A stretch of 64,000 bases of DNA from Pseudorhodoferax soli (lineage in GTDB: Bacteria; Pseudomonadota; Gammaproteobacteria; Burkholderiales; Burkholderiaceae_C). Position numbers and translations under genes: made by a program. Location of the stretch: NCBI RefSeq assembly GCF_003337555.1, contig NZ_QPJK01000005.1:186001-250000 (forward strand), in the 5' to 3' direction. The notes beneath the pieces are model-generated. The model was not told the origin of the DNA, searched no databases, and saw nothing but the letters and a program-made list of their open reading frames with translations. Of the stretch, positions 1 to 15,255 are shown piece after piece. Every line of letters starts with the position of its first letter. Positions within the stretch are counted from its first letter, which is position 1.

Positions 1-540
1 ACCTTGCGTTGTGTGGCTTCCAAGTACGGCCAATACGTGCAACGCGCAGCCACCCTCGCGGAACTGGCCCGCAGCATCGGCGTCGATGAGCGCGAGTTGG
101 CCGGCACGGTGGCGCAGTACAACCTCGACGACAAGCACGATCATGCGTTTGGCCGCGGGGGTACGCCATACGAAAGGTGGGGCGGCGACCCGCTCATTTC
201 ACCCAACCCTTGCATAGGGCCGATCATGCGGCCGCCCTTCTTCGCCGTGCGCCTGCATCCCGGCAGCCTGGGCACACTGGCCGGCATGGCGACCGATGAG
301 AACGCACGCGTGCTCGATACCAACGGCGCGGCCATCCCTGGCCTGTACGCATGTGGCAATGACATGGCGGCGGTGATGGGCGGGCACTATCCCGCCAACG
401 GCGTGACGCTCGGCGCTGCGATGGTCTTTGGCCACATCGCCGGGCAGACAGCGGTCGACAGCCCGGAAGGGCGGACCGCACGGGGCGCCGCGCAGCCGCC
501 CCACGAATTCTCGACACCGCAGCGAGACAGCAGCCCGTGA
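1..540 (+). CDS. FAD-dependent oxidoreductase, 3-ketosteroid dehydrogenase/fumarate reductase-like (3' part)
   Basis: Only the C-terminal ~179 residues lie in the window; the reading frame is open to the left edge. The segment GLYACGNDMAAVMGG followed by HYPANGVTLGAAMVFG is the C-terminal FAD-binding signature of the FAD_binding_2 family and most closely recalls 3-oxosteroid 1-dehydrogenases, which introduce a C1-C2 double bond in steroid ring A using FAD. The N-terminal Rossmann motif is outside the window, so the substrate cannot be fixed; a fumarate reductase-like flavoprotein is the alternative. The stop codon overlaps the GTG start of the next gene by 4 bases, so the two are probably cotranscribed. 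The family call is solid; steroid specificity is inference. Confidence 0.8.
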   Translation, partial: TLRCVASKYGQYVQRAATLAELARSIGVDERELAGTVAQYNLDDKHDHAFGRGGTPYERWGGDPLISPNPCIGPIMRPPFFAVRLHPGSLGTLAGMATDENARVLDTNGAAIPGLYACGNDMAAVMGGHYPANGVTLGAAMVFGHIAGQTAVDSPEGRTARGAAQPPHEFSTPQRDSSP

Positions 541-2288
541 ACACTGCGATGCCGGCCGCCGCGGTCCGGGCGGACACCGAGGCGCAGGAGCTGACGGAGC
601 GGCGCTTTCAGCTCATGGTTGTGCAGGTGCTGGCCGTGCGTTGGTCGTATTTCTTCATGACGGCGGTGGTGGCGGCTGTCGGCTGGCAGGCCGTGGCACC
701 GCCGTGGGTTCTGGCCTGGCTGGCAGGCGCGGTGCTCGTGTTCGAGCTGCGAGCGCGGTGGTTGGCGCGCCAGGCCACGCTGGTGCTGGTGCCCGCGCAG
801 GCGAAGGTGCGCGGCGCATTGCTGTGGAACGTTGCTTTGGGGCTGGCCTACGGCCTGTCGGCGCTGTTCATGCCGAGCCTGGGGTTGACGTTGTCCGCGG
901 TGCTGACGACGATCGTGGTTTCTGCCGCCGCCGGTGCGGTGGCCATCAGTGGGCCGCTGCTGCAGGTCTATCTGGCGTATACGCTGAGCATCATGTTGCC
1001 GTTTGCGTTGGTCTGGGCAGCGAATGGCACCTGGCTCGGCACAGGGCTGGCGCTGCTGATGGCGATGTTTGTCTCTGTCCAGTATCGTTTTGCTCGCAAG
1101 GTTAACGAGACGTTCACCGAGTCGTTTGTGATCCGGCGGGTGAATGAGCAGTTGGTGGCGGAACTGACGGTGGCACGCGACCAAGCCAATGCAGCCAATG
1201 TCGCCAAGACGCGGTTTCTCGCTGCTGCGAGCCATGATCTGCGCCAGCCCTTGCACGCTCTGTCGCTGCAAAGCTCCGCGCTGCTGCTCGACCCTCGCGC
1301 CGATGACACGCCGCAGATTGCGGCAGCCATCGCAGGGTCGATCCAGGACGTCGCAGCACTGCTTGATTCCCTGCTCGATATTTCCAAGCTCGATGCAGGC
1401 ACGCTGCGCGCGGACCGGCGTCCCATCCAGCTGTCGCGGATGCTGGAAGCGCTGGGGCGGTCTTTTCTGCCTTTGGTCCGGTCCAAGGGATTGCGTTTTG
1501 AACTGCAGGTGATCCCAGGCGTCGTTGCAGTGACTGATCCGATGCTGCTCGAACGGATTCTGCGCAATCTGGTCGACAACGCGATCAAGTTCACGCCGGC
1601 GGGGACCATCCGGATGACGCTGCAGGTCGTGCATGAAGAGCTTGAGTTGGTGGTGAGCGACACCGGCATCGGGATCGCGCCGCACCTGCAGGCCAAGGTG
1701 TTCGACGAGTTCTACCAAGTGGACCGGCACGCTCAAGGCCATACCCAGGGGCTGGGGTTGGGGCTGTCGATCATCAGCCGACTTGCACTGCTGCTGGGCA
1801 TCGCGGTGACCTTGAGTTCCGAGGCAGACGCGGGAACGACCATCCGGCTGCGCCTGCCAATGGAGCGCAGCGACGTTCCGCGGCCTGCACCTGAGGCAGC
1901 CCCGCCATCGCCTGGACCTGGTTTGCGGGGGCTGCGGATTCTGGTGCTCGATGACGAGCCCGCTGTCCGTGAAGGCATGAGCAACCTGTTGCGCCGTCTG
2001 GGCTGCGAAGTGGCATGCGGGGCTGACACGGACGAGGCGCTGGCGTGCGCGCGCACCTTCGGGCCGCGCATCGTCATGGCCGACTACCGTTTGCGCGACG
2101 ATGCCAACGGAATCGATGCGATCGGGCGTCTTCGGAAGCAGCATCCTGGTCTGCTATCGCTGCTGATCAGCGGCGACACAGCGCCTGACCGCCTGCGCGA
2201 GGCGGCCGACAGCGGACTGCAACTGCTGCACAAGCCGGTGTCGTTGGAGCAACTCAAGCAGGCGCTTGCCGACCTGCTCGACAACTGA
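537..2288 (+). CDS. Hybrid sensor histidine kinase with C-terminal receiver domain
   Basis: A 583-residue membrane kinase. Several hydrophobic helices fill residues ~38-180 with no large periplasmic loop, so it probably senses a membrane or cytoplasmic signal. The phosphoacceptor is H233 in the HDLRQPLHAL box, followed by the ATPase domain with the N box (NLVDNAIKF), DTGIGI and GLGLGLSI motifs at ~345-440. A receiver domain occupies ~462-580 with acceptor D516 and the conserved lysine in LLHKPVS. The GTG start overlaps the stop of the upstream flavoprotein. No separate DNA-binding regulator is adjacent, so the output is unknown; control of the flanking oxidoreductase genes is a guess from position. 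Confidence 0.9.
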   Translation: MNTAMPAAAVRADTEAQELTERRFQLMVVQVLAVRWSYFFMTAVVAAVGWQAVAPPWVLAWLAGAVLVFELRARWLARQATLVLVPAQAKVRGALLWNVALGLAYGLSALFMPSLGLTLSAVLTTIVVSAAAGAVAISGPLLQVYLAYTLSIMLPFALVWAANGTWLGTGLALLMAMFVSVQYRFARKVNETFTESFVIRRVNEQLVAELTVARDQANAANVAKTRFLAAASHDLRQPLHALSLQSSALLLDPRADDTPQIAAAIAGSIQDVAALLDSLLDISKLDAGTLRADRRPIQLSRMLEALGRSFLPLVRSKGLRFELQVIPGVVAVTDPMLLERILRNLVDNAIKFTPAGTIRMTLQVVHEELELVVSDTGIGIAPHLQAKVFDEFYQVDRHAQGHTQGLGLGLSIISRLALLLGIAVTLSSEADAGTTIRLRLPMERSDVPRPAPEAAPPSPGPGLRGLRILVLDDEPAVREGMSNLLRRLGCEVACGADTDEALACARTFGPRIVMADYRLRDDANGIDAIGRLRKQHPGLLSLLISGDTAPDRLREAADSGLQLLHKPVSLEQLKQALADLLDN

Positions 2289-2333: not shown

Positions 2334-5300
2334 ATGCACCCTGGAGTTGGCTGGTTGTCGCGCGATGCGCACGCGCTGCAGATTCGTCTGAAGGAAAAGG
2401 CTATGCCGCTGCACTGTGATCTGCTGATCGTCGGCAGCGGATATGGAGGCGCCGTGGCGGCGGCGCGCATGGCCGGGCTGCAGCACAGCGGCAAGCCGCT
2501 GCGCGTGCTGCTGGTCGAGCGTGGGCGCGAGTACCTGCCGGGCATGTTTCCATCGCGCACCGGAGATCTGCCCGGGCACGTGCGCTTCAGCCAGCAGGAC
2601 GGCAAGCCGCCGCGCGGGCCAGCCACCGCGCTGTGGGATCTGCGCCTCGGCCCCGATGTGAATGTCGTGCAGGGCAGCGGCCTGGGCGGTGGCTCGCTCA
2701 TCAACGCCGCGGTGATGGAGCGACCGGAGCCCGCTGTCTGGCAAAGCGTCTGGCCGCCGCAGATCGATGGCGGGCAACTCGATGGCGCCTACCGCAAGGT
2801 GGAGACTATGCTGCAAAGCGCGCCACTGCCCGCGGGCCAGCAATTGCACAAGCTCAGCGCGCTGCAGCATCTGGGCGATGGTCTCCCGGGCGCGCCGCGC
2901 GTGCAACGCTGCAACCTCGCGGTAGCGTTCTCGGACGCACGCACGCCTGCCGGCGTCGAACAGAAGGCCTGCATCCACTGCGGCGACTGCGCTACCGGGT
3001 GCAACCACCGCGCCAAGAACTCGCTGGATGTGAACTACCTGGCGCAAGCCAAACGCCGGGGCGTCGACATGTACTGCGGCGTGCTGGCCTTGCGCATCGA
3101 GCGGCTCGTCGGCTCCGAGTTCTGGCAGGTTCGCTGGGTGCCGACGGACAGGTCGCGTGGCTGGGCTGGCGAAGCCGAACCGATCCGCACGCGCTTTCTC
3201 ATCATTAGCGCAGGCAGCCTGGGTTCGACCGAATTGCTGCAGCGATCGGAATTGGGAATGCGCGAACGAGCCAGGGACGACGCCGGGCAGAGTGACTCAG
3301 GCGACAAGTCAGGATCCGCTCGACGGGCACGCTTGCGCTTCTCGGAGGCGCTCGGGTCGCGCTTTTCCACCAATGGCGACATGCTTGCCGCGGCCGTCAA
3401 GTTGCCGGTCCACACGCAGATCTGCGCCGAGGAGACCGCGCCGGCGAAGGTCGATGGCAAACCTGCACGCCACATCGGCCCGACCATCACCGGCATGCTG
3501 CGCAGCGGCGCCGGCTCTAGTCGCTTCACGGCGCAGGAATTTGCGATTCCCGCGGCACTGCGCACCTTGCTGGCCGAACTGACTGGCACGCTGGACATGC
3601 TGCATGCCATGCCGCGGTTCGACTGGTCTTTGCATTCGCCCCACCAGCGTGGCGACGATCCCCTGTCTCCCGGGCAGGCTGCGCTGGACCGCACCATGGT
3701 CTATGGCTTGATGGGCGACGACGGTGCCGGCGGCCGCCTTGAACCGACGCGCCGGCCATCGAGCGAGCGCGGCGAGCAACAGCTTGCGCGCCAACTTGAG
3801 CAGACCCCGCCCTTGGAAGAGCCGTTCGATGGGCGTATCGCCGTGCAGTGGCCCGACGCGCGCCACGCGACGGTGTTCGATGCCCAGCACGCGGCACTCG
3901 GCAAAGCCTATGGCACGCGCCGCCGAGGCTGGTACCTGCCCAATCCGGCCTGGCGCCCGCTGCCGCAGGCACTCGACCGCCTGGCGCAGGGTCGGGGTGT
4001 GCGGGGGCCGGTGACGACGGTGCACCCGCTGGGGGGGTGCCCGATGGGCGAGAGCATCCACAGCGGCGTGACCGACTGGGCAGGGTGCGTCTTCAACGCG
4101 GATGGCTCCAGCCAAGGTCCAGGGCAGTTTCACCATGGCCTTGCAGTGCTCGACGGCTCGATCGTGCCACGCGCCCTTGGCATCAATCCAGCGTTGACCA
4201 TCGCCGCGCTCGCCGAGCATGCCATCCCTGCACTGCAGCAGCGCTGGGAGATTGAAGGCGAGGAGCATGCCGACGCCGCGGAGCCATCCGCAAAGTTTGC
4301 CCGGCCGGTGTGGAGCGAGCCCGTGGCACGTCCCCTGCAACCGGCGACGGCAGCTCGGCTACTCGAAAGGGCACACGGCGCGCTGGAGATCGGCGGCGAG
4401 CGCTACTGGGGCGCGATGCAGGTGCATTTCGCGCCGATCGAGGATGTGGCGGCCTTCGCGCGCACGCTGCCACGGCGTGTAGCGTTCGAGCGCGTGGTGC
4501 TGTACCTGTACCCGGACCGCGGCGGGCTGGACGATGACCCGCAGTGGCGGGCACAGCGCGATGTCGAGGTCACGCCGCTGTGGGAGGTCACGCTCAGCGG
4601 CGAGGCCGACGTCCTGTTCCGCCATTGGTCGTGGGGGCTGTGCCGTGTGTGGCGCAGCTGGGTCAACCTTGGAAGTACCAACCGCATCGGTGGGACTGCG
4701 CAGTGGTGGCCACCACGCGCTGCAATGACCTCCATGCGCGCCTTGCTGCAGAAGGTGGCCATCGCCTCCAACATAGGCGAGCAGCGCGGCATCGACTATC
4801 TGCTGCACGTGGACTGCGTGTCCGGCCCGAACAGCCCGCTGCAGCCCGGCGATCGCCTGCGCGGCCGCAAGCTGATCGACAACTCGCTGGACAGCAACCC
4901 GTGGCGCCAGGTCAGCGAGATGCGCATGGAGCTCGTGCGCAGCAAGGGAATCTTGCGTCCAGCACTCTTGCCACTCGGCACCCTGTCGCTGGACCTGCGC
5001 TACTTCGTACGGCACAAGACCGCGCTGCTGGCAATGCAATCGCAGCCCGACATGGTCACGGCTCTGGCAGATTTGGGCAGCTTTGCATTGATGGCAGCAC
5101 GCGTGTTGCTGAAGATCCAGTTGCTGAAGTTCGTTCCGCCGGAGAAGCGCGACCGCAGCATCAAGGCACGGCGGCCGGCGGAACTGCCAGGGCTGTCGAT
5201 CCAGCGCTACGACCTGCGTCCGCAACGCAAGGTGCTGCTCACGCGGTATCACAACGAGGTAGAGCCACCGCTCGGCCCGCCCATCGTGCTGTTGCATGGA

Positions 5301-8294
5301 TTCACCGCCAGCGGCTCGACCTTCGCCCACCCCTCAATGCCACGCAATCTTGTGCAGTACCTGTGCGGTGAGCGGCGCGACGTCTGGGTCGTCGAGCTTC
5401 CTACCAGCATCGCGTTTGCCAAGCGAGAGGCTGTCGATCAGAGCTTCGAGGATGTAGCCGAGCACATCCCGTTCATTGTCCGCAGGGTGTTGAGCCTGCG
5501 CGTTGCGGAGGACAAGGAGCTCGGGCGCCCGCCCGTGCCGCGCCGGCAGATGAAGGTGGATGTACTGGCGCACTGCATCGGCGCCGCGATGTTCTGTCGC
5601 GCCGTCTTGCGCCGTGGCAGTCCGCACCAGCGCGTGCGCTCGCTAACGCTCTCCCAGGTCGGCCCGCTGATCCAGATGTCGCCCGCCAATCTGCTTCGGG
5701 GTTATCTGGCCAGCTACCTCGCCCAGTTCCTCGGCGTCGACTCATTGGACGCGCGCCCCAGTTTCGCGCCCGGCGGCGCCAACAGCCTGGGCCAGACGCT
5801 ACTGGACGCGGTTTTGGCGAGCCTGCCCTACCCGGCCCGCGACCACGAGCAGGAATTGGCCGCGCAGGCGGTTGCGCAAGGGCGGCCAGACTTTCGACTG
5901 GTGCGGCACCGCGCCGATGCGATGCTGGGCAGGCTGTTCGAACTGACACCGGATTCCCCGGTGTCCGCCGCGATGCTCGATGCGCTGGACGACATCCTCG
6001 GCTATGCCCGCGTGCGAACGCTGGCGCAAATCATCCACTACACACAGCACGCGATGCTGACCGACGACGACGGCCGCAACCGCGACCTGCACCATGACGC
6101 TCTGAGCCGGCGGATGGGTTTTCCCGTATTGATGTTGCATGGGCGCCGCAGCGGCGTGTTCGACTGGCGTGGCAGCATGGAGAGCTACCTGTGGCTGCGC
6201 GACAGCCATGCGCCACGCCTGGACCCCGCGCTCGGGCGCGTCGTGCGCGACGCGGAAAGGCTCCACCTGGGGCTGGATACGCCGCGCCAGCTCTGCATTT
6301 TCGAGAAGTTCGGCCACCAGGACACGATCATCGGCAGCCGCGCGCCGGACGTGGTCTACCCGGTGGTCGGAGATTTCCTGCGCTGGGTGGCGGAAACGGA
6401 GACATGTCCGCTGCCGCCGCTGCCTTCGCCGACAGGCGCGTTGCAGCAGGCAAAAGTACCGGCATCCTCGCCAGCGCCTGGCGTCGCCGTCGCACAGCAG
6501 CCAGCCCGACCCTGGGTTGCAGTCCTGCCTTGGATTGGACCCGTGCTGGGTTGGTTGCGTGAAGCACCGCAGGACGGTTGGATCAAAGTCTCGTTCCTGC
6601 TGCGTCCCAACCCAACGCATGCACGCACCTCTTTCGTCGGGGTCGTGCCGATGCGACTGATCCGGGGCCAGTGGGTTCATCCTGAAGACGCCCCGATCAT
6701 CCTGTGGGAGGCATCGGACAGCGAGCTGCCAATAGGGGACGTGCTGGCACTTCGACTCATGGAGATGGCCAAAGAACCGCCTCCAATCGTGTTCGTTACG
6801 GAGCCTGCAGCGCAGCGCCGCAGCGAGAGCGGCGATGATGCAGAGGAGGAGGAAGAAGACGCGGAGGACGCGGAGGACGAGGCGTTGTTGCCTGACATAG
6901 GACCTCGCTTACGCGCGGGAGCAGTGGCGTTGGACATCGACCCGGCCTGGGTCGATGGTGTGAACAGTGCATTGCTTCTGCTGACAGTGCACGATGACAT
7001 GCCAAAGCGCCCGCGTGCACTGACAGAGGAAGATTTGACTTGGTTGACGATCCGATCAAGGCGAGCGAGCCGACATGCAATCTCGGCTGTACGCCGCTTC
7101 CTCGCCGACCCGCCCCAATCGCTTGAATCGGCTCTGCTGCGCGTCCCGGCCTCACTGATCGCCGCGCGCGATCTGAGAACGGTGGACGTTCCTGCGGCGC
7201 GGACCAGCCCGCTGCACGTGGCCATCTGCAGCTGCCAGTACCCCGGCGGTCTGCTCGATCAGGATCTGGCCCAGGCAAGTCTGGCGCGCCTGGCCCAGCG
7301 CTTGCGCGCGCCGTCCGACAAGGTCGGCGCCGCACCGCAGCTGTTGCTGCAACTGGGCGACCAGGTCTATGTGGACGAGACCGCCGGTCTGTTCGACCCT
7401 GTCACTGCAAAGATCGCCCTCGAGCAGATCTACGACCGAACCCAGGGAGCGTCCGCTGCGCGGGAGGTGTTCGCGCGCGTGCCCAGCTATTGCATGCTCG
7501 ATGACCACGAAGTTCGGGACAACTGGCAGCGGGGGCAGGGCTCCGCAGATCAGAAAGCGGAGGACGACCGCGCCTTGATGGCTTTCCGGGAACGCCAAGC
7601 CAGCCTGAACCCACCGTTTACATATGACTGCGGTTCGGCCAGCTTCCAGGCGGCGCCCGGCGGCTGGCCGCTGTTCGTGCTGGACACGCGCACACGCAGG
7701 GACCAGCGCTCGCCGCAGACTTTTCTGAGGGCCCACATCGCACCATTGCAAGAGTTGGATAGACTGCTTGCGTGGCTCGGGGCGCTTAACCAGCTGGAGC
7801 CAACATGCCCCAAGTTCGTCGCCACCCCGAGCGTCATTCTTCCGTTGTTGCGCAGCGCGCCAGGCGAGGTAGCCTGGAGTGACGATGGTTGGGCTGGCTA
7901 CCCCGCTTCGCAAGCCCATCTGCTGGGCGAGATCGCGAGGCAGCGGATCCGCAACGTGGTGTTTCTGTCTGGCGATGCCCACCTGTCCATGCTCACAAAG
8001 ATGACGATCGCTTGGGAGGCACAGCAACCAGTCACAGTCCGCAGCATCGTGTCATCCGGCTTGTATGCTCCTTGGCGATTTGCCAATGCGGAGCCCGCCA
8101 ACTACTGCACAGGCGCGTTCGCGTGCCGGCTCTCGGACGCGTCACGTATCCATGGCGAGAGTGCGACCACGTTCCATCAAGCGGACGGATTCGCGGTCAT
8201 AAGCGCTGTGCGAGGGCGGGGCGGCTACCAAATCTCAGTCGATTTTGACCTCGCCGACGGTCGCCATTCCACAAGTTGGGCGTCGGACGAATAG
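2334..8294 (+). CDS. Triple-fusion enzyme: GMC oxidoreductase, alpha/beta hydrolase, PhoD-like phosphatase
   Basis: A single 1,986-residue frame. Residues ~23-620 are a GMC (cholesterol oxidase-like) flavoenzyme: FAD loop GSGYGGAVAAARMAG, a cysteine-rich CIHCGDCATGC segment, and the C-terminal HPLGGCPMG motif at ~564. Residues ~640-950 are a linker resembling the region after GMC domains in cholesterol oxidase-like proteins. An alpha/beta hydrolase spans ~975-1335 with oxyanion motif HGFTASG (988), nucleophile elbow AHCIGA (Cys1081 where Ser is usual) and candidate His1328. A Pro/Ala and then acidic linker (~1345-1520) leads to a PhoD-like metallophosphatase with LGDQVY (D1676), DDHEVRDNW (H1725) and SGDAH (H1883). 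GAGGAG lies 7 bases before ATG 2334; ATG 2403 is also preceded by AAGGA and would start nearer the FAD loop. The 3' third looks less GC-rich than the downstream genes. Substrate unknown; the oxidase and the upstream flavoprotein hint at steroids or other polycyclic lipids. Confidence 0.82.
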   Translation: MHPGVGWLSRDAHALQIRLKEKAMPLHCDLLIVGSGYGGAVAAARMAGLQHSGKPLRVLLVERGREYLPGMFPSRTGDLPGHVRFSQQDGKPPRGPATALWDLRLGPDVNVVQGSGLGGGSLINAAVMERPEPAVWQSVWPPQIDGGQLDGAYRKVETMLQSAPLPAGQQLHKLSALQHLGDGLPGAPRVQRCNLAVAFSDARTPAGVEQKACIHCGDCATGCNHRAKNSLDVNYLAQAKRRGVDMYCGVLALRIERLVGSEFWQVRWVPTDRSRGWAGEAEPIRTRFLIISAGSLGSTELLQRSELGMRERARDDAGQSDSGDKSGSARRARLRFSEALGSRFSTNGDMLAAAVKLPVHTQICAEETAPAKVDGKPARHIGPTITGMLRSGAGSSRFTAQEFAIPAALRTLLAELTGTLDMLHAMPRFDWSLHSPHQRGDDPLSPGQAALDRTMVYGLMGDDGAGGRLEPTRRPSSERGEQQLARQLEQTPPLEEPFDGRIAVQWPDARHATVFDAQHAALGKAYGTRRRGWYLPNPAWRPLPQALDRLAQGRGVRGPVTTVHPLGGCPMGESIHSGVTDWAGCVFNADGSSQGPGQFHHGLAVLDGSIVPRALGINPALTIAALAEHAIPALQQRWEIEGEEHADAAEPSAKFARPVWSEPVARPLQPATAARLLERAHGALEIGGERYWGAMQVHFAPIEDVAAFARTLPRRVAFERVVLYLYPDRGGLDDDPQWRAQRDVEVTPLWEVTLSGEADVLFRHWSWGLCRVWRSWVNLGSTNRIGGTAQWWPPRAAMTSMRALLQKVAIASNIGEQRGIDYLLHVDCVSGPNSPLQPGDRLRGRKLIDNSLDSNPWRQVSEMRMELVRSKGILRPALLPLGTLSLDLRYFVRHKTALLAMQSQPDMVTALADLGSFALMAARVLLKIQLLKFVPPEKRDRSIKARRPAELPGLSIQRYDLRPQRKVLLTRYHNEVEPPLGPPIVLLHGFTASGSTFAHPSMPRNLVQYLCGERRDVWVVELPTSIAFAKREAVDQSFEDVAEHIPFIVRRVLSLRVAEDKELGRPPVPRRQMKVDVLAHCIGAAMFCRAVLRRGSPHQRVRSLTLSQVGPLIQMSPANLLRGYLASYLAQFLGVDSLDARPSFAPGGANSLGQTLLDAVLASLPYPARDHEQELAAQAVAQGRPDFRLVRHRADAMLGRLFELTPDSPVSAAMLDALDDILGYARVRTLAQIIHYTQHAMLTDDDGRNRDLHHDALSRRMGFPVLMLHGRRSGVFDWRGSMESYLWLRDSHAPRLDPALGRVVRDAERLHLGLDTPRQLCIFEKFGHQDTIIGSRAPDVVYPVVGDFLRWVAETETCPLPPLPSPTGALQQAKVPASSPAPGVAVAQQPARPWVAVLPWIGPVLGWLREAPQDGWIKVSFLLRPNPTHARTSFVGVVPMRLIRGQWVHPEDAPIILWEASDSELPIGDVLALRLMEMAKEPPPIVFVTEPAAQRRSESGDDAEEEEEDAEDAEDEALLPDIGPRLRAGAVALDIDPAWVDGVNSALLLLTVHDDMPKRPRALTEEDLTWLTIRSRRASRHAISAVRRFLADPPQSLESALLRVPASLIAARDLRTVDVPAARTSPLHVAICSCQYPGGLLDQDLAQASLARLAQRLRAPSDKVGAAPQLLLQLGDQVYVDETAGLFDPVTAKIALEQIYDRTQGASAAREVFARVPSYCMLDDHEVRDNWQRGQGSADQKAEDDRALMAFRERQASLNPPFTYDCGSASFQAAPGGWPLFVLDTRTRRDQRSPQTFLRAHIAPLQELDRLLAWLGALNQLEPTCPKFVATPSVILPLLRSAPGEVAWSDDGWAGYPASQAHLLGEIARQRIRNVVFLSGDAHLSMLTKMTIAWEAQQPVTVRSIVSSGLYAPWRFANAEPANYCTGAFACRLSDASRIHGESATTFHQADGFAVISAVRGRGGYQISVDFDLADGRHSTSWASDE

Positions 8295-8321: not shown

Positions 8322-9350
8322 TCAGACTTTCAGCAAGCCCTGCAACCGCGTCGACGTCGTCGTGTACTCCACCACCACCTTGCGCCCGCTGACCAGCCGC
8401 TCGGCCGCGTCGAACGCCGCCAGCGTGGCCTCGTGGAAGCCGCACAGGATCAGCTTCTTCTTGCCCGGGTAGTGGTTGATGTCGCCCACCGCATAGACGT
8501 TGGGCAGGCTGGTGGCACAGGTGGCCGGGTTGACCGCCAGCTGCTTGCGCTCCATCGCCATGCCCCAATCGGCCAGCGCGCCGAGGCGGGGCGACAGGCC
8601 CTGGCGCACCACAAGCAGGTCGAGCGGTAACCGCGTGTCGGGCCCTTCGGCATGGCTCAGCACCAGCCGGGAGAGCCGGCCCTGGGCGTCGGTCTCGAAA
8701 GCGGTGGGTTGGCCGGTGGCGACGCGGATGTGGCCGGCGTCGCGCAGCCGCTGCAGTTCTGCCAACTGGGCTGGCTCGGCCTCGAAGGCGTCGCGCCGGT
8801 GCAGCAGGGTCAGCGAGGCGGGTGCGGCCTGCGCGAAGGCGAGGGCGCTCGCCACGGCCTCCTCGCCACCGCCGGCGACCACGAGGTGGCGGCCGGCCAC
8901 GGCCGAGGCCTCGGGCGCGTAGTAGTGCAGCGCGCCGCCCTCGAAGGCCTCGATGCCTTCGATGCGCAGCCGCCGCGGCTGGAAGGCGCCGATGCCGGCC
9001 GCGATGAACAGCGCACGGGTTGTGAATTGCGTGCCCGCATTGGTGGCCAGCTGCAGCCGCCCATCGGGCAGGGTGCTGAATTCCGTGACTTCCTGCCCCA
9101 GGTGCAGCTGCGGCGCGAAGGGCGCGGCCTGCTCCTGCAGCGACGCGACCAGCTCGCGCCCGGTGCACACCGGCACGCCAGGAATGTCGTAGATGGGTTT
9201 GTCCGCGTACAGCGCCGCGCACTGGCCGCCCACATAGGGCAGTACGTCGACGATGTGGGCCCGGATCTCCTGCAGGCCGAGCTGGAAGGCCTGGAACAGG
9301 CCGGCGGGGCCGGCGCCGATGATGAGCGCGTCGGTCTCGATCACGCGCAC
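8322..9350 (-). CDS. Ferredoxin--NADP(+) reductase, thioredoxin reductase-like type
   Basis: A 342-residue flavoprotein with FAD loop IIGAGPAGLFQAF near the N-terminus, the VGGQCAALY segment typical of the TrxR-like ferredoxin/flavodoxin reductases (YumC class), a second nucleotide-binding loop (VVAGGGEEAV) and the C-terminal YAVGDINHYPGKKK. It lacks the CxxC redox pair of true thioredoxin reductases, which supports electron transfer between NADPH and ferredoxin. The start is GTG, 7 bases after the stop of the ferredoxin gene, so the two form an electron-transfer pair. A role as a different pyridine nucleotide-disulfide family reductase is less likely. Confidence 0.85.
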   Translation of the reverse strand: MRVIETDALIIGAGPAGLFQAFQLGLQEIRAHIVDVLPYVGGQCAALYADKPIYDIPGVPVCTGRELVASLQEQAAPFAPQLHLGQEVTEFSTLPDGRLQLATNAGTQFTTRALFIAAGIGAFQPRRLRIEGIEAFEGGALHYYAPEASAVAGRHLVVAGGGEEAVASALAFAQAAPASLTLLHRRDAFEAEPAQLAELQRLRDAGHIRVATGQPTAFETDAQGRLSRLVLSHAEGPDTRLPLDLLVVRQGLSPRLGALADWGMAMERKQLAVNPATCATSLPNVYAVGDINHYPGKKKLILCGFHEATLAAFDAAERLVSGRKVVVEYTTTSTRLQGLLKV

Positions 9351-9357
9351 CGCCGGT

Positions 9358-9687
9358 TCACTTCACCAGTTCGGCGATCTTGTTCGGCTTGTCTTTCCAC
9401 TCGTCGGCATCGGGCAACGCGGGCTTGCGCTTGGTGATGCTCTTCCAGCCGTCGGCCAGCGCCAGTTCGGCGTTGAGCTTGATGAAGGCGAGCTGGTCGG
9501 CCGGCAGGTCTTCCTCGGCGAAGATGGCGTTGGCCGGGCACTCGGGGATGCAGACCGCGCAATCGATGCACTCGTCCGGGTCGATCACCAGCATGTTCGG
9601 GCCTTCGCGGAAGCAGTCCACGGGGCACACGTCGACGCAGTCGGTGTATTTGCAGCGGATACAGTTTTCGGAGACGACGTGGGTCAT
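9358..9687 (-). CDS. fdxA: 7Fe ferredoxin FdxA
   Basis: 109 residues, the usual length for the FdxA family. Cysteines at 9, 12, 17, 21 and 25 (CIRCKYTDC...CPVDC) and 40, 43, 46, 50 ([12 protein letters not shown]) are the pattern for one [3Fe-4S] and one [4Fe-4S] cluster, and the conserved C-terminal extension (~70-109) is present. It carries low-potential electrons in the cytoplasm. It is followed directly by a ferredoxin reductase gene, the likely partner, and lies 124 bases behind cysN on the same strand. A TAAAAT -10-like element lies about 47 bases upstream. Confidence 0.95.
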
Positions 9688-9733
9688 GGTGCTTGACGGT
9701 GCGGGCGGGCGGTGCCGCTGGGGGAAACCCGCG

Positions 9734-9739
9734 ATTTTA
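9734..9739 (-). promoter_or_regulatory. Candidate -10 element for fdxA-reductase pair
   Basis: The minus strand reads TAAAAT here, five of six matches to the sigma-70 -10 box, in the 124-base gap between cysN and fdxA. No good -35 box is visible, so an activator or read-through from the cys genes may also be used. Confidence 0.35.
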
Positions 9740-9811
9740 GGGACATTTGCATCCCCACACCGTGCGCAGCCCCTGTGGCCGGCATGGGTGGGGTCTGTAG
9801 GTGGCGCGCTT

Positions 9812-11143
9812 TCAGCGCACCAGAACGGCGGCAGCCGTCTTGTGCGAGGCCTGGTCGACCAGCACCAGCGCACCCAGGGTGCGCGACTGGCGGTAGGGCA
9901 GCGTGGCGATGCTGTCCTGCAGCACCAGCTCGACCTCGCCGATGGCGTTGGCTTCGAGCTGGCTGGCGTCCTGCTCGGCCAGCGTGTGGATGTCCAGCCA
10001 ATGCACGATGCGGCGCACCTTGGCCTTGACCCAGCGGTGGCCATGCAGCGCCCAGTACGCGCGGCCGGGCACCAGCGGCTCGTCGTCCATCCAGGCGACC
10101 GTGGCGCTGACCTCGCGGGCGCCCTGCAATGCCGTGCCGTCCTCGGCTTCGGCCAGCAGCCAGTCGCCGCGCGAAACGTCGACTTCGCGGTCCAGCACGA
10201 TGCCGGCGCTGTGGCCAGCGGCCACGTCCTGCTCGCTGCGCACATGGCTCAGCACGCGGGCGATGGTCGCGCTCTGGCCGCTCGGCAGCACGCGCACGCG
10301 CTGGCCGACCGTGGCCTGGCCCGTGGCCACGCGGCCCCAGAACACGCGCCGCCCTTGGCTGGTGTCCGACGACGACGAGAACTTCTCGACCCATTGCACG
10401 GGGAAGGCCAGCGGCAGGCCGGTCTCGGACGGCGTGTTCGACAGGCCTTCGAGGATGCGCAGCAGGCTGGGGCCGTGGTAGCCGCACCAGTCGGCGTCCG
10501 GTGCGGCATCGACCACGTTCCAGCCCTTGAGCGCGGAGACGGGCACGATGGCCTCGACCGCGATGCCGGCCTCCTGCGCAAAGCCGCGCAACGCGGCCTC
10601 GATGCGGGTGTAGGCCAGCCGGGGGTCGGCCACGGCATCCAGCTTGTTCACCGCGAACACGATGGCCGGCACGCGCAGCAGTTGCACCAGCAGCGCGTGG
10701 CGGCGCGTCTGCGCCAGCAGCGGGAAGCTCGCGTCTTGCCAGGCCAGCTTGGTCGCGTCGACCAGCAGCACGGCGGCGTCTGCGCTCGACGCGGCCGTCA
10801 CCATGTTGCGCGTGTACTGCTCATGCCCCGGCGTGTCGCCGATGATGAACTTGCGCCGCGTGGTCGAGAAATAGCGGTAGGCCACGTCGATCGTGATGCC
10901 CTGCTCGCGTTCGGCCGACAGGCCATCGGTCAGCAGCGCGAGATCGGTCTCGCGGCCGTCCTGGCCCTGGCGCTGCACGCCGGCCAACTGGTCGGACAGA
11001 ACCGCCTTGCTGTCGACCAGCAGGCGGCCGATCAGCGTGCTCTTGCCGTCGTCCACGGAGCCGCAGGTGATGAACTTCAGGGCGGCCGTGGGTGCGGCAT
11101 CGTTGGCGGCGGTCGTCACGGAATGCTCAAGGGTGGCGGTCAT
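9812..11143 (-). CDS. cysN: Sulfate adenylyltransferase subunit 1 (GTPase)
   Basis: 443 residues. CysN hydrolyses GTP to drive CysD-catalysed formation of adenosine 5'-phosphosulfate (APS) from sulfate and ATP. The GTPase motifs are complete: P-loop [16 protein letters not shown], and NKLD, followed by two beta-barrel domains as in EF-Tu relatives. There is no fused APS kinase (CysC) at the C-terminus, which fits an APS reductase pathway. The ATG shares one base with the cysD stop (TGATG), so translation is coupled. A longer upstream frame exists but runs through cysD and is not used. Confidence 0.96.
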
Positions 11144-12105
11144 CAGAAGTACCCATCTTTCTTGCGCTTCTCCATCGAAGCCTCGGAGGTCTTGTCGTCC
11201 ATGCGCGTGGCGCCGCGCTCGCTCACGTCGGACAGCAGTGTCTCCACCACGATCTCGTCCGGCGTGCTGGCCAGGCTCTCGACCGGGCAGGTGCAGGTGA
11301 TGTCGCCCACGGTGCGGAAACGCACCTGGCGGCGCTCGGCAACTTCGCCATCTTTCAACGGTGTGAGTTCGGTCACCGGCACCAGCAGGCCGCGGCGCTC
11401 CACCACCGTGCGCTCGTGGCTGTAGTACAGCGAGGGCAGGGCGATGTTCTCGCGGGCGATGTACTGCCACACGTCGCGCTCGGTCCAGTTGGAGATCGGG
11501 AACACGCGGAAGTGCTCGCCGCTCTGCAGCCGGGTGTTGAACAGCGTCCACAGCTCGGGGCGCTGGGCCTTGGGCTGCCATTGGCCGAAGCTGTCGCGGT
11601 GCGAGAAAATGCGTTCCTTGGCGCGCGCCTTCTCCTCGTCGCGGCGGGCGCCGCCGATCAGCGCGTCGAAGCGGAATTCGTCGATGGCCTCCAGCAGCGT
11701 GACCGACTGGTGCACGTTGCGCGATTCGCCGGGGTGCGCAAGGCGCACCGTGCCGCGGGCCATGGAATCCTCGACGCTGCGCACGATCAGTTCGGCACCC
11801 AGCTCCTTGGCGCGCAGGTCGCGGAAGTCGGTCACTTCGTGGAAGTTGTGGCCGGTGTCGATCATCAGCAGCGGATACGGGATGCGGCCCGCGCCGAACG
11901 CCTTCTCTGCGCACTTGAGCAGCACCAGCGAATCCTTGCCGCCCGAGAACAGCAGCGTCGGGCGCTCGAAGGCCGCGGCCACCTCGCGCAGGATGAAGAT
12001 CGCTTCCTCTTCCAGCGCGTCGAGCTGGGCGTCGGCCAGGGGGGTATGGGCCACGGGCGGGTGCAGCACGTCGGCTTGTTGTTCGAATTGGGTGCGGGCG
12101 TTCAA
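11143..12105 (-). CDS. cysD: Sulfate adenylyltransferase subunit 2
   Basis: 320 residues from a TTG start. It is the catalytic ATP-pyrophosphatase-fold subunit that joins sulfate to AMP, working with CysN. SGGKDSLVLL is the PP-loop; GHNFHEV, SHRDSFGQW and SNWTERDVW are CysD family motifs. The TTG was chosen because it overlaps the cysH stop in a TTGA junction, has GGAG upstream, and gives a family-typical length; upstream in-frame starts lie inside cysH. Confidence 0.93.
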   Translation of the reverse strand: MNARTQFEQQADVLHPPVAHTPLADAQLDALEEEAIFILREVAAAFERPTLLFSGGKDSLVLLKCAEKAFGAGRIPYPLLMIDTGHNFHEVTDFRDLRAKELGAELIVRSVEDSMARGTVRLAHPGESRNVHQSVTLLEAIDEFRFDALIGGARRDEEKARAKERIFSHRDSFGQWQPKAQRPELWTLFNTRLQSGEHFRVFPISNWTERDVWQYIARENIALPSLYYSHERTVVERRGLLVPVTELTPLKDGEVAERRQVRFRTVGDITCTCPVESLASTPDEIVVETLLSDVSERGATRMDDKTSEASMEKRKKDGYF

Positions 12106-12890
12106 GAGGGGCTCCGTTCGGCAATCGGGGAAAGGCGGGAAATCGGCAGGGCGCTCACGGCGACGGGGTCGTCTTCCTGGGCCACGTGCAGGCCGCATTC
12201 CTTGGCGGCTTCGTCTTCCCACCACCAGCGGCCGGCGCGGAAGTCCTCGCCCAGGCTGATGGCCCGGGTGCAGGGCGCGCAGCCGATGCTGGGAAAGAAC
12301 TCATCGTGCAGCGGGTTGTAGGGCACCTGGTGTTCGCGGATGTAGTGCCACACGTCGCCCCAGGTCCATTCGGCCAGCGGGTTGTACTTGAGCCGTTCGG
12401 CGTTGCTGCGGTCGACCAGCGGCACGTCGGCGCGGGCGCCGGACTGTTCGCGGCGCAGGCCGGTGATCCAGGCCTGCTTGCCTTCGAGGGCGCGGGCCAG
12501 GGGCTCCATCTTGCGGATGTCGCAGCAGGCCTTGCGCAGGTCGATGCTGCGGTACATGGCGTCCAGGCCTTCGCGGGCGACGAAGTGCACCACGGCTTCC
12601 TCGCGCGGGTGCATCACCTCGATCGGGCGGCGCGCCTCGGCGCGCAGGCGCTCCAGCAGGGCCAGCGTCTCGGGATGCAGGCGGCCGGTCTCCAGCACGA
12701 AGGCTGGGATGTCCAGGCCCAGGGCGTCGATCAGGTGGCCGACGACCATGTCCTCGGCGCCCAGGCTGTGGGCCTGCGTCACGAACGCGGCACCGTGCGC
12801 GACCTGCGCCTCCTGGAGCACACGGCGCGTGGCGGTCAACTTGGCCTCGAAGTCGGCCGAGGGCCGGGCGTGCAGGTCGATGGCGGACAT
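12102..12890 (-). CDS. cysH: Adenylyl-sulfate (APS) reductase
   Basis: 262 residues. It reduces APS to sulfite and AMP with thioredoxin or glutathione as donor. The cysteine pairs KACCDIRK and GCAPCTR are the [4Fe-4S] ligands that mark APS-specific enzymes as opposed to the cluster-free PAPS reductases, and the C-terminal KECGLH motif holds the catalytic cysteine. This explains the absence of an APS kinase. It overlaps the DUF934 stop by one base (TGATG) and the cysD start by four. Confidence 0.94.
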   Translation of the reverse strand: MSAIDLHARPSADFEAKLTATRRVLQEAQVAHGAAFVTQAHSLGAEDMVVGHLIDALGLDIPAFVLETGRLHPETLALLERLRAEARRPIEVMHPREEAVVHFVAREGLDAMYRSIDLRKACCDIRKMEPLARALEGKQAWITGLRREQSGARADVPLVDRSNAERLKYNPLAEWTWGDVWHYIREHQVPYNPLHDEFFPSIGCAPCTRAISLGEDFRAGRWWWEDEAAKECGLHVAQEDDPVAVSALPISRLSPIAERSPS

Positions 12891-13282
12891 CAGGCGTGCT
12901 CCGCGGCCTCGGCGAAATGCGGCGCGGGATGCGCGGCATCGCCCTGGTAGAAGCCCTTGAAGCGGTCGAACTGGCGCTGGGCAGCGTCGGCCTTCAGGCC
13001 CTGGCGCAGCACAGCCGTAGTGAAGCCCGAGCGCGCCATTTGCACGAGCTGGTCGATCAGCACGTCGCCCGTGGCGCGGATCTCGCCCGCAAAGCCCAGG
13101 CGGCGGCGCAGCATGTAGGCCTGGCTGTAGGCCCGGCCGTCGGTGAACTTGGGGAAGTTGAGGTCGATGCGCTGCACGCCGTCCAGTGCCAGGCTGCGCG
13201 GGTCGACCGTGTTGTCCACCACCAGGATGCCAGCGGCGCCTTCGGCGGGCGCCTCGTGTTGCTCGAATGTCAGGATGTTCAT
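12890..13282 (-). CDS. DUF934 protein of the sulfate assimilation operon
   Basis: A 130-residue cytoplasmic protein with the DUF934 signature (NFPKFTDGRAYSQAYMLRRR, then a conserved ATGDVLIDQL). Genes of this family sit next to cysI in many proteobacteria; the function is not established, though an accessory role for sulfite reductase is usually assumed. It lies 15 bases after cysI and overlaps the cysH start by one base, so it is in the middle of the operon. Confidence 0.9.
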   Translation of the reverse strand: MNILTFEQHEAPAEGAAGILVVDNTVDPRSLALDGVQRIDLNFPKFTDGRAYSQAYMLRRRLGFAGEIRATGDVLIDQLVQMARSGFTTAVLRQGLKADAAQRQFDRFKGFYQGDAAHPAPHFAEAAEHA

Positions 13283-13297
13283 CGTGGCTGCTCTTCT

Positions 13298-15082
13298 TCA
13301 GGCGGTCTGGGCTTCGGGCTTGCGCGCCGTGCTGACGCGGGCGGCATTGGCCGCGGCCTTGAACGGGTCGTGGCCGACGCGGCGCAGCGTGGAGATGAAG
13401 GTCTCGCCGCTGCTGCGCTGGGCACGGTAGGTGTCCAGCAGGGCCTCGATGACCTCCGGCACTTCGGCCGCCGCGAACGAGGGGCCGACCACCTTGCCGG
13501 CGGCCGGCGCGCCCGACAGCTGCGAGCCGTCCGAGCCGGCCAGCGTGATCTGGTACCACTCCTGCCCATCCTTGTCCACGCCCAGGATGCCGATGTGCCC
13601 CGTGTGGTGGTGGCCGCAAGAGTTGATGCAGCCGCTCATGTGCAGGTCGATCTCGCCCAGGTCGTGCAGTTCGTCCATGTCCTGGTAGCGCGCCGTGATG
13701 GCGTGCGCGATCGGCAGCGAGCGGGCGTTGGCCAGCGCACAGAAGTCGCCGCCGGGGCAGGCGATCATGTCGGTCAGCAGGCGCACGTTGGACTTGGCCA
13801 GGCCCAGCTTGCGGGCTTCCTGCCAGAGCGCGGGCAGTTCCTCGGCGCGCACCCAGGGCAGCACCAGGTTCTGGTCGTGCGTGACACGCGCTTCGCCGGC
13901 GCTGTAGCGGTCGGCCAGGTCGGCCGCACGTTCCAGCTGGTCGGCCGTGGCGTCGCCCGGCGCGAAGCCCACGCGCTTGAACGACAGCGTGACGATGCGC
14001 AGTTCGGCGTTCTTGTGCGGAGCAACATTGCGCTGCAGCCAGCGCGCGTAGTCCACATCGCTCTGGGCATCGAGCTGCGCGGCGGCGCGCAACGCGGTGT
14101 CGACGTCGTTGGCGGCAGGCCGGGCAGGCGCGTGGAACGAGGCGGACACGCGGTCGAGTTCGGCCTGCGTGATGGTGTGGGCCGCGCCGTCGTGCGCCAT
14201 GATCTCGGCGTACTCCTCCTCGACCTCGTCGATGTAGCGCTGGCCTTCGGCCTTCACGAGGATCTTGATGCGCGCCTTGTAGATGTTGTCGCGCCGGCCC
14301 CAGCGGTTGTAGACGCGGACCACGGCTTCCAGGTAGTTGATGACCTGGTTCCAGGGCAGGAACTCGCGGATCACCGTGCCGACCACGGGCGTGCGGCCCA
14401 TGCCGCCGCCGACCAGCACGCGGAAGCCGACTTCGCCGGCGGCGTTGCGCACCACGTGCAGGCCCACGTCGTGCCAGAAGGTCGCTGCACGGTCTTCGCT
14501 GGCGCCCGTGATCGCGATCTTGAACTTGCGCGGCAGGAAGGCGAACTCGGGATGCAGCGTGCTCCAGTGGCGCAGGATCTCGGCGAAGGGCCGCGGGTCG
14601 GCGATCTCGTCCACGGCGATGCCGGCACGCTCGTCGCTCGTGATGTTGCGGATGCAGTTGCCGCTGGTCTGGATGCCGTGCATGTTGACGCTGGCCAGCA
14701 GGTCCATCACGTCGGCGCTGCGGTCCAGCGGGATCCAGTTGTACTGGATGTTCTGGCGCGTCGTGAAGTGCGCCACGCCGTCGGGCAGGCTGGTCAGGTC
14801 CGACAGGCCGGCGTTGGCCTTGGCCAGGTCGTGCGCGCCACGGTCGTCGTATTCGCGCGCGATCTTGCCCAGCACGCGCAGCTGGGCGGAGTTGAGCTCG
14901 CCATAGGGCACGGCGATGCGCAGCATGGGCGCGAAGCGCTGCACGTACCAGCCGTTCTGCAGCCGCAGCGGACGGAACTCGTCTTCCGCCAGTTCGCCCT
15001 TCTGCCAGCGTTCGAGCTGGTCACGGTACTGGGCAGCGCGCAGCTGGACGAACTCGCGGTCGAAATCTGTGTATTGGTACAT
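13298..15082 (-). CDS. cysI: Sulfite (nitrite/sulfite) reductase, siroheme [4Fe-4S] subunit
   Basis: 594 residues. It reduces sulfite to sulfide with six electrons at a coupled siroheme-[4Fe-4S] centre. The cluster ligands are C442 and C448 (CPGGDFC) and C485 and C489 (CINSC). Two ferredoxin-like and two catalytic repeats characteristic of the family are present. No flavoprotein partner (CysJ) is encoded in the cluster; a ferredoxin and its reductase are encoded just behind the operon and could supply electrons. It is the first gene of the operon. Confidence 0.93.
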   Translation of the reverse strand: MYQYTDFDREFVQLRAAQYRDQLERWQKGELAEDEFRPLRLQNGWYVQRFAPMLRIAVPYGELNSAQLRVLGKIAREYDDRGAHDLAKANAGLSDLTSLPDGVAHFTTRQNIQYNWIPLDRSADVMDLLASVNMHGIQTSGNCIRNITSDERAGIAVDEIADPRPFAEILRHWSTLHPEFAFLPRKFKIAITGASEDRAATFWHDVGLHVVRNAAGEVGFRVLVGGGMGRTPVVGTVIREFLPWNQVINYLEAVVRVYNRWGRRDNIYKARIKILVKAEGQRYIDEVEEEYAEIMAHDGAAHTITQAELDRVSASFHAPARPAANDVDTALRAAAQLDAQSDVDYARWLQRNVAPHKNAELRIVTLSFKRVGFAPGDATADQLERAADLADRYSAGEARVTHDQNLVLPWVRAEELPALWQEARKLGLAKSNVRLLTDMIACPGGDFCALANARSLPIAHAITARYQDMDELHDLGEIDLHMSGCINSCGHHHTGHIGILGVDKDGQEWYQITLAGSDGSQLSGAPAAGKVVGPSFAAAEVPEVIEALLDTYRAQRSSGETFISTLRRVGHDPFKAAANAARVSTARKPEAQTA

Positions 15083-15255
15083 CGTGGTGCTTGAGAAGGC
15101 GGTGGCCGCGCAGGGCCGGCGGGGTCAAGACTCAGTGGAAACCCGCGTACTCTAAGGAATTCGGCCTTAGATCCAAACTACTTATTTGTTGTGGCGCTAT
15201 GCGTGCTTGGTTATAAGCAAAGCGCCAGGGGCCGCTAAAAGGCCCGTCGAAGCCG
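15083..15255 (-). promoter_or_regulatory. Upstream region of the cys operon with inverted repeat
   Basis: The 173-base gap between ppx and cysI holds an AT-rich stretch (about 15170-15228), conspicuous in this GC-rich sequence, and a perfect 6-base inverted repeat CTAAGG/CCTTAG at 15152-15170. This is where the cysI promoter and any LysR-type activator (CysB/Cbl) site should be; no single site could be assigned with confidence. Confidence 0.45.

Follow-up and report, generated by a model that had tools for sequence, protein, structure and literature searches.

The window, a stretch of 64,000 nucleotides of Pseudorhodoferax soli DNA, carries a gene (2334..8294, + strand) for one long polypeptide, in which a GMC oxidoreductase, a domain of unknown kind, an alpha/beta hydrolase and a PhoD-type phosphatase follow one another. 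Since the three-enzyme protein recurs in other bacteria, fused or as neighbouring genes and mostly beside the same type of sensor kinase, it may be regarded as an undescribed, sensor-controlled machine for the processing of a lipid-like compound. The favoured explanation, to which an even chance is given, is that of a cytosolic multienzyme for one large, probably lipid-like, acylated and phosphorylated alcohol, under a dedicated two-component system, the substrate itself being a prediction. Each of the parts is of a known kind, and the novelty lies in their combination, in the four-cysteine and Cys-nucleophile features and in the coupling to a kinase. Among the papers listed by searches of open-licence full texts, none describes the three-domain protein; the architecture is present in public annotation, as in WP_205239617.1 of Ensifer sp. 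PDNC004 (annotated 'alpha/beta fold hydrolase', 1908 residues), which has the same domain order in one protein, is known as annotation only and lies at a locus without an adjacent kinase and with a cyclase gene nearby.

The interest of this conserved and apparently unstudied multienzyme is that a combination of recognisable parts predicts the substrate, an acylated phosphorylated alcohol. Moreover, the interchange of fused and split forms at fixed gene order, the existence of two phosphoesterase partners and the linked kinase make the question of what is processed directly testable, while the Cys/His/Asn variant of the acid-lipase type and the cysteine-rich domain resembling cholesterol oxidase each merit a structure. 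The features of the gene are the following (FAD, flavin adenine dinucleotide; PHA, polyhydroxyalkanoate):

2334..8294, + strand: the whole polypeptide (GMC, domain of unknown kind, alpha/beta hydrolase, PhoD), 1986 residues, supported by single-frame relatives
2409..4253, + strand: GMC oxidoreductase domain, residues 26-640, with the FAD motif GSGYGG from residue 34, from Pfam and a PDB profile search
2970..3002, + strand: ferredoxin-like CIHCGDCATGC, Cys 213/216/219/223, with weak Fer4 matches below the cut-off
4023..4040, + strand: HPLGGC with His564, aligned with HPLGGC of cholesterol oxidase and kept in 40 of 40 proteins
4176..4199, + strand: LGINPALT with Asn618, aligned with GVNPFVT of cholesterol oxidase and kept in 40 of 40 proteins
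4251..5228, + strand: domain of unknown kind, about 300 residues (residues ~640-965), from an alignment of 30 sequences
5211..6458, + strand: alpha/beta-hydrolase domain, residues 960-1375, with Abhydrolase_1 in 32 of 35 members
5568..5585, + strand: nucleophile elbow AHCIGA with Cys1081, falling on GHSQG of acid lipases and GYCIGG of PHA synthase
6138..6155, + strand: HGRRSG, catalytic-acid position, Ser1273, which is Asp in gastric lipases
6309..6323, + strand: FGHQD with the catalytic His1328, GHxD falling on HLD of the lipases
6831..6881, + strand: acidic linker GDDAEEEEEDAEDAEDE, residues 1500-1516, absent as a conserved feature in aligned relatives
7227..8291, + strand: PhoD-type phosphatase domain with the motifs SCQYP, GDQVYVD, DDHE and SGDAH, from Pfam and a PDB profile search

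The original prediction had described a continuous frame of 1,986 codons, and this is borne out: the frame is open from its ATG to position 8294, and the chance of an equally long open random frame at the gene's own base composition is about 10^-20.6. The start codon is credible because AGGAG lies 7 bases 5' of the ATG and because a W-L/I-S motif stands at most 45 residues ahead of the FAD motif, as it does in a further 27 of the 42 long GMC frames examined. The GC content at third codon positions is 72-83% across four parts of the gene. Among the enzyme domains that had been proposed, Pfam places GMC_oxred_N (residues 111-312, 45.6 bits, cut-off 23), GMC_oxred_C (560-627, 31.3 bits, cut-off 24.6) and PhoD (1699-1903) above their cut-offs in the whole protein, while Abhydrolase_1 (cut-off 25.8 bits) reaches 29.6 bits as an isolated domain but 22.8 in the whole protein. 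The motifs named earlier were all located (HPLGGC at residue 564, HGFTASG at 988, AHCIGA at 1079, LGDQVY at 1674, LDDHEVRDNW at 1722 and SGDAH at 1879), as was the acidic linker. The statement that each third of the protein has its own catalytic motifs holds for the three enzyme parts, but it omits the domain of about 300 residues between the GMC part and the hydrolase. No export signal was seen by eye at the N-terminus, and a hydropathy scan gave a single hydrophobic stretch, at residue 908.

Many distant genomes share this architecture in a single frame. Frames that match GMC, hydrolase and PhoD alike are present in 10 further genera sampled from the family (G035, G063, G085, G110, G143, G204, G226, G242, G268 and G276, the last truncated where its contig stops). 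The order sample has them in five genomes (G284, G306, G368, G423 and G457) and the class sample in two (G637 and G653), a third, G533, being interrupted. Furthermore, 7 of the 38 matching plasmid records cover at least 80% of the protein in one place, all 7 being Ensifer megaplasmids; one of the three fetched Ensifer loci (L059) consists of two overlapping frames. Since single-frame relatives exist in other genera, families and orders and on these megaplasmids, the frame is not a joining artefact, and the sequencing error that had been named as one possible refutation of the original prediction does not apply; judged from the sequences, chance read-through is already refuted by the relatives. 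If a carrier is defined as a genome in which GMC and PhoD matches are both found, some of them on different contigs or interrupted, the family sample holds 26 carriers in 250 genomes, that of P. soli counted, three of them (G033, G034 and G137) with the two parts on different contigs. The phylum sample (299 genomes) adds one carrier, G769, with the split form, and a contig scan gave one locus, a contig piece with hydrolase and PhoD.

In the split form, a separate PhoD gene of about 540-625 codons stands immediately 3' of the GMC-hydrolase gene; gene calls in the fetched loci were made by a simple script, which missed the PhoD gene of L089, seen by direct match. The start and stop codons overlap in frame as ATGA at 6 of 11 split junctions, and 2 more have an ATGA out of the called frame. 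The GMC-hydrolase tree (40 proteins) is a quick one, with support from the Shimodaira-Hasegawa-like approximate likelihood ratio test only, and leaves 11 of its 37 forks open; on it the fused forms are interspersed with the split ones, at a minimum of 4 changes. The PhoD tree shows the same main groups and also 4 changes. The pairwise identities of PhoD and GMC-hydrolase parts are correlated (r 0.95 over 33 loci, with none of 2000 permutations as high), so that both parts travel together. The three-enzyme reading thus holds, PhoD being a true part of it, but the fusion is no one-off, for many genera have it and others carry the two parts as a gene pair. In the G085 genome, a further cassette (L097, G085:C1:4641901) has only a 275-codon PhoD match behind its GMC-hydrolase gene.

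The nearest known relative of the GMC domain is class I cholesterol oxidase (PDB 1b4v, 1coy), of the same FAD/GMC family, which was the best PDB match (2.3e-45) of a profile of 31 GMC domains out of the 34 listed, and whose active-site His and Asn align with His564 and Asn618. The His of HPLGGC has a catalytic role in cholesterol oxidase. The position of E402 is acidic in all 40 proteins, and it presumably corresponds to E361 of cholesterol oxidase, as judged by eye, the stretch lying beyond the printed profile alignment. The NCBIfam family NF058674 (cholesterol oxidase) matches all 31 GMC domains scanned, but the GMC domain stays far under its cut-off (125.1 against 850 bits; 119.7 for the whole protein). 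Two further differences are that, in contrast to cholesterol oxidase, the domain is fused to three others, and that the aligned cholesterol oxidase has no cysteine where the domain has CxxCGxCxxGCN, a motif overlooked earlier and present in 40 of 40 proteins. The His/Asn pair of cholesterol oxidase is named in PMC6719666, which also describes the glucose dehydrogenase of Burkholderia cepacia as a GMC enzyme whose 3Fe-4S cluster has been solved, with Cys212, 218 and 222 as its ligands in a loop. The alpha subunit of this FAD enzyme (PDB 6a2u) matches the GMC profile as well (6.5e-14). The B. cepacia enzyme has three ligands and a separate gamma subunit, whereas here there are four cysteines as CxxCxxCxxxC, the two loops being putative counterparts. 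Because the motif is kept in all 40 proteins and an iron-sulphur GMC dehydrogenase matches the profile, the four cysteines are likely to bind an iron-sulphur cluster that would take the electrons of the FAD.

The domain that follows was found by BLAST with the P. soli stretch in 26 of 43 long GMC proteins. Glu39, Tyr183 and Lys207 (stretch numbering) are invariant in 30 aligned sequences of 35 listed, which are only 14-30% identical to that stretch, and Pfam and PDB profile searches gave no credible match.

As regards the hydrolase, a profile of 35 sequences matches gastric lipase (1e-15) and lysosomal acid lipase/cholesteryl ester hydrolase (3.5e-13) in the PDB and, much more weakly, PHA synthase (4.9e-5). 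The gastric and lysosomal acid lipases (PDB 1hlg, 1k8q, 6v7n) share the alpha/beta-hydrolase scaffold, and elbow and His align, but the nucleophile Ser is replaced by Cys and the Asp by Asn (by Ser in P. soli), so that the GHSxG of serine lipases is missing. PHA synthase (PDB 9knj, 6k3c) has Cys at the elbow, as here. The Cys is present in 40 of 40 proteins, by which an ordinary serine esterase is ruled out. The P. soli domain has both Cys and His, with Ser at the acid position; the HGxxN of its relatives falls on the GGxD of gastric lipases, in a weak second stretch of the alignment.

The PhoD domain (PF09423, 66.3 bits, cut-off 27) is a member of its family with the metal-site residues present, the Cys, Asp, DDHE and DxH columns being invariant in 30 aligned sequences (34 listed). 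Its profile matches alkaline phosphatase PhoD (PDB 2yeq, from Bacillus) at 1.1e-23, with metal-site motifs in common. PhoD enzymes are usually exported by a twin-arginine translocation (Tat) signal; unlike typical members, this domain is internal, in a protein without a visible export signal, and is joined to, or encoded behind, a GMC-hydrolase. One relative (L091, G096:C9), the sole cassette of the same bacterial family without a kinase, has degenerate PhoD metal-site motifs and was left out of the alignment.

The genome of P. soli also contains a second GMC-hydrolase gene, without PhoD (L063:7578-13810, G000:C6), directly 5' of which Pfam places a calcineurin-like phosphoesterase gene. Relatives of this phosphoesterase stand directly 5' of a GMC-hydrolase gene in 9 genomes, that of P. 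soli included (tblastn; 12 locus ids, some of them one place). Three of these loci, L063, L100 and L101, were included in the GMC-hydrolase tree and form one clade there with L061 of Leptospira. Because two groups of GMC-hydrolases often keep metallophosphoesterases of two different families, a phosphate step may be taken as part of the job of this enzyme set. The second GMC-hydrolase gene also adjoins another alpha/beta hydrolase gene.

Upstream of the multienzyme gene, and in the same direction, a LuxR-type response regulator, a dehydrogenase resembling KstD and a hybrid sensor kinase are encoded in this order, each overlapping the next by 4 bases, and the kinase gene is separated from the GMC-hydrolase-PhoD gene by 45 bases. 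Two of these genes reach into the window:

1..540, + strand: 3' end of the KstD-like FAD_binding_2 dehydrogenase gene, the whole being 624 residues (L062:17666-19540)
537..2288, + strand: hybrid sensor histidine kinase directly upstream, with hydrophobic N-terminus, HisKA, HATPase_c and receiver

The kinase is nearest to NahK/ErcS, which is given as the nearest named family only, its score for NF041832 (290.2 bits) falling short of the cut-off of 400. The KstD-like gene is under the curated cut-off in all 25 families listed (e.g. 360.7 against 789), and none of the other fetched loci contains a relative. Linkage of the kinase was assessed on 37 cassettes whose fetched locus includes both GMC and PhoD; a contig end cuts one of them, which leaves 36 testable. 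In 29 of these a gene for a related kinase immediately precedes the cassette on its own strand, in 1 it is a neighbour on the opposite strand, in 1 it is fused in frame, and 5 lack it, while for the other genes of these loci such a kinase is the 5' neighbour, on either strand, in 14 of 537 cases. Kinase and GMC-hydrolase identities are also correlated (r 0.95 over 30 loci). The fused case is a 2377-codon frame in the one-contig genome G085 (L066:5701-12834, G085:C1), which combines kinase, receiver, GMC, hydrolase and PhoD, the hydrolase being recognised by BLAST and the other parts by Pfam.

According to the favoured explanation, the upstream kinase would respond to the substrate, or to a membrane signal related to it, and would switch on the operon by way of the LuxR-type regulator. 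Taken in a tentative order, the Cys-His hydrolase domain would remove the acyl group, from an ester or a thioester and by hydrolysis or transfer, by way of a Cys acyl-enzyme; the GMC domain would oxidise the alcohol through FAD and the His/Asn pair, the electrons passing to a bound iron-sulphur cluster and not directly to oxygen; and PhoD would strip off a phosphate mono- or diester.

Several observations weigh against this explanation. The acid site is Asn in 39 of 40 proteins and Ser in P. soli alone, which makes the activity of its hydrolase less sure than that of the relatives. The gene is absent from all five genomes of the same genus, so that it is dispensable and its distribution patchy. 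The single-sequence structure predictions, with a mean predicted local distance difference test score of 32.5 (GMC) and 35.1 (middle domain plus hydrolase), yielded no usable model, also for the putative cluster. Only 1 of the fused/split changes on the PhoD tree is forced by strongly supported branches; moreover, matched divergence and linkage are partly expected from shared descent, and near-identical loci are counted separately. With respect to the second phosphoesterase, tblastn gave no match at L061 of Leptospira (16.9 kb) or at L009, L014 and L052, which have short flanks. Finally, a kinase is missing from five cassettes (the three Ensifer loci, G769 and L091); all of these except L091 have instead a divergent gene for an adenylate/guanylate cyclase nearby, either complete or shortened.

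Some of these observations would also suit an accident of the genome, either a chance read-through of adjacent genes or a gene with decayed domains: the Ser at the acid site, the five congeners without the gene and the lost PhoD motifs of L091 are all of this kind. Such an origin is extremely improbable, since the one-frame architecture is repeated in many distant genomes and the other catalytic residues inspected are kept. The hydrolase allows another reading, in which a PHA-synthase-like Cys domain would load a thioester-bound acyl group onto the alcohol oxidised by the GMC domain, the whole being a biosynthetic or storage-lipid enzyme. The invariant elbow Cys, which aligns with that of PHA synthase among the profile matches, speaks for it, but the acid lipases match far better, and a link with PHA is not visible, PhaC_N being near-universal and hence uninformative (34 carriers and 31 non-carriers, of 36 each, have it; a non-carrier is a genome that lacks matches to the protein at E 1e-20, although some have weak ones). 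An acyltransferase role is therefore unlikely. The earlier suggestion of a large lipid or steroid-like ester as substrate leads to steryl-ester catabolism, in which the hydrolase would free the sterol, the GMC domain oxidise the 3-hydroxyl group, the KstD-like dehydrogenase continue and PhoD remove a sterol phosphate. The likeness of the GMC domain to cholesterol oxidase and of the hydrolase to gastric lipase and cholesteryl ester hydrolase, together with the KstD-like gene inside the operon, speaks for this reading. KshA is the enzyme of steroid ring cleavage, and it (PF19298) is absent from the P. soli genome; of 36 carriers, 36 non-carriers and 5 congeners, matches below E 1e-20 occur in 1, 2 and none, and matches up to E 0.001 in 8, 12 and none, respectively. 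With no enrichment in carriers, steroid catabolism as a general role was rejected; the Cys nucleophile, which the lipases lack, and the low scores and isolation of the KstD-like gene also count against steryl esters, making them quite unlikely. Home-made hopanoids were likewise discarded, as hopene cyclase exceeds its cut-off in 1 of 36 non-carriers but in no carrier out of 36, where G284 alone has a weak match below it. Because the steroid evidence conflicts in this way, likeness standing against missing KshA and hopene cyclase, the commitment is only to a large acylated, phosphorylated alcohol.

The kinase, for its part, could be more than a regulator. Enzyme and kinase might be a single unit for signalling: the enzyme would produce or degrade the ligand of the kinase, or its redox cluster would inform the kinase, and a gain of carbon would not be the purpose. 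Linkage in 31 of 36 cassettes and the 2377-residue protein that joins kinase and receiver to every enzyme part are in its favour, as is the cyclase gene, whose product is likewise a signalling protein, of four among the five cassettes without kinase; yet kinases near catabolic genes are usually mere regulators, and the fusion was seen once only. A purely sensory role is accordingly given a low probability. The natural fusion in G085 does suggest that the kinase and a lipid-processing enzyme with several catalytic or redox centres (iron-sulphur/FAD oxidase, Cys acyl hydrolase, phosphatase) could be one working unit, the kinase reading substrate, product or redox state, an idea that is likewise held to be improbable.

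Around the cassettes, large cyclase genes were noted near the GMC-hydrolase in Ensifer and G769 (L058:10606-14616 and L081:12886-16965, respectively) and farther off in Leptospira (L061:14659-16884), the Ensifer cyclase having also an AAA domain. All-against-all clustering revealed further shared neighbours, among them a protein of 191 residues encoded upstream in 7 loci, a PAS kinase found at 4-5 kb upstream in 5 and the cyclase, also in 5; those other than the cyclase lie farther from the cassette. Upstream of the P. soli operon, a divergent cluster (L062:13021-16108) adjoining it contains, among other genes, one for a methyltransferase resembling cyclopropane-fatty-acid synthase, a possible link with lipid modification, and two Hsp70-like genes on one strand flank two small genes (L062:2762-8851) in what appears by eye to be a separate chaperone cluster. 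Downstream, at 8322-15094, a convergent thioredoxin-reductase-like gene is followed, by eye, by genes for ferredoxin and for sulfate assimilation; this stretch seems to have no relation to the cassette.

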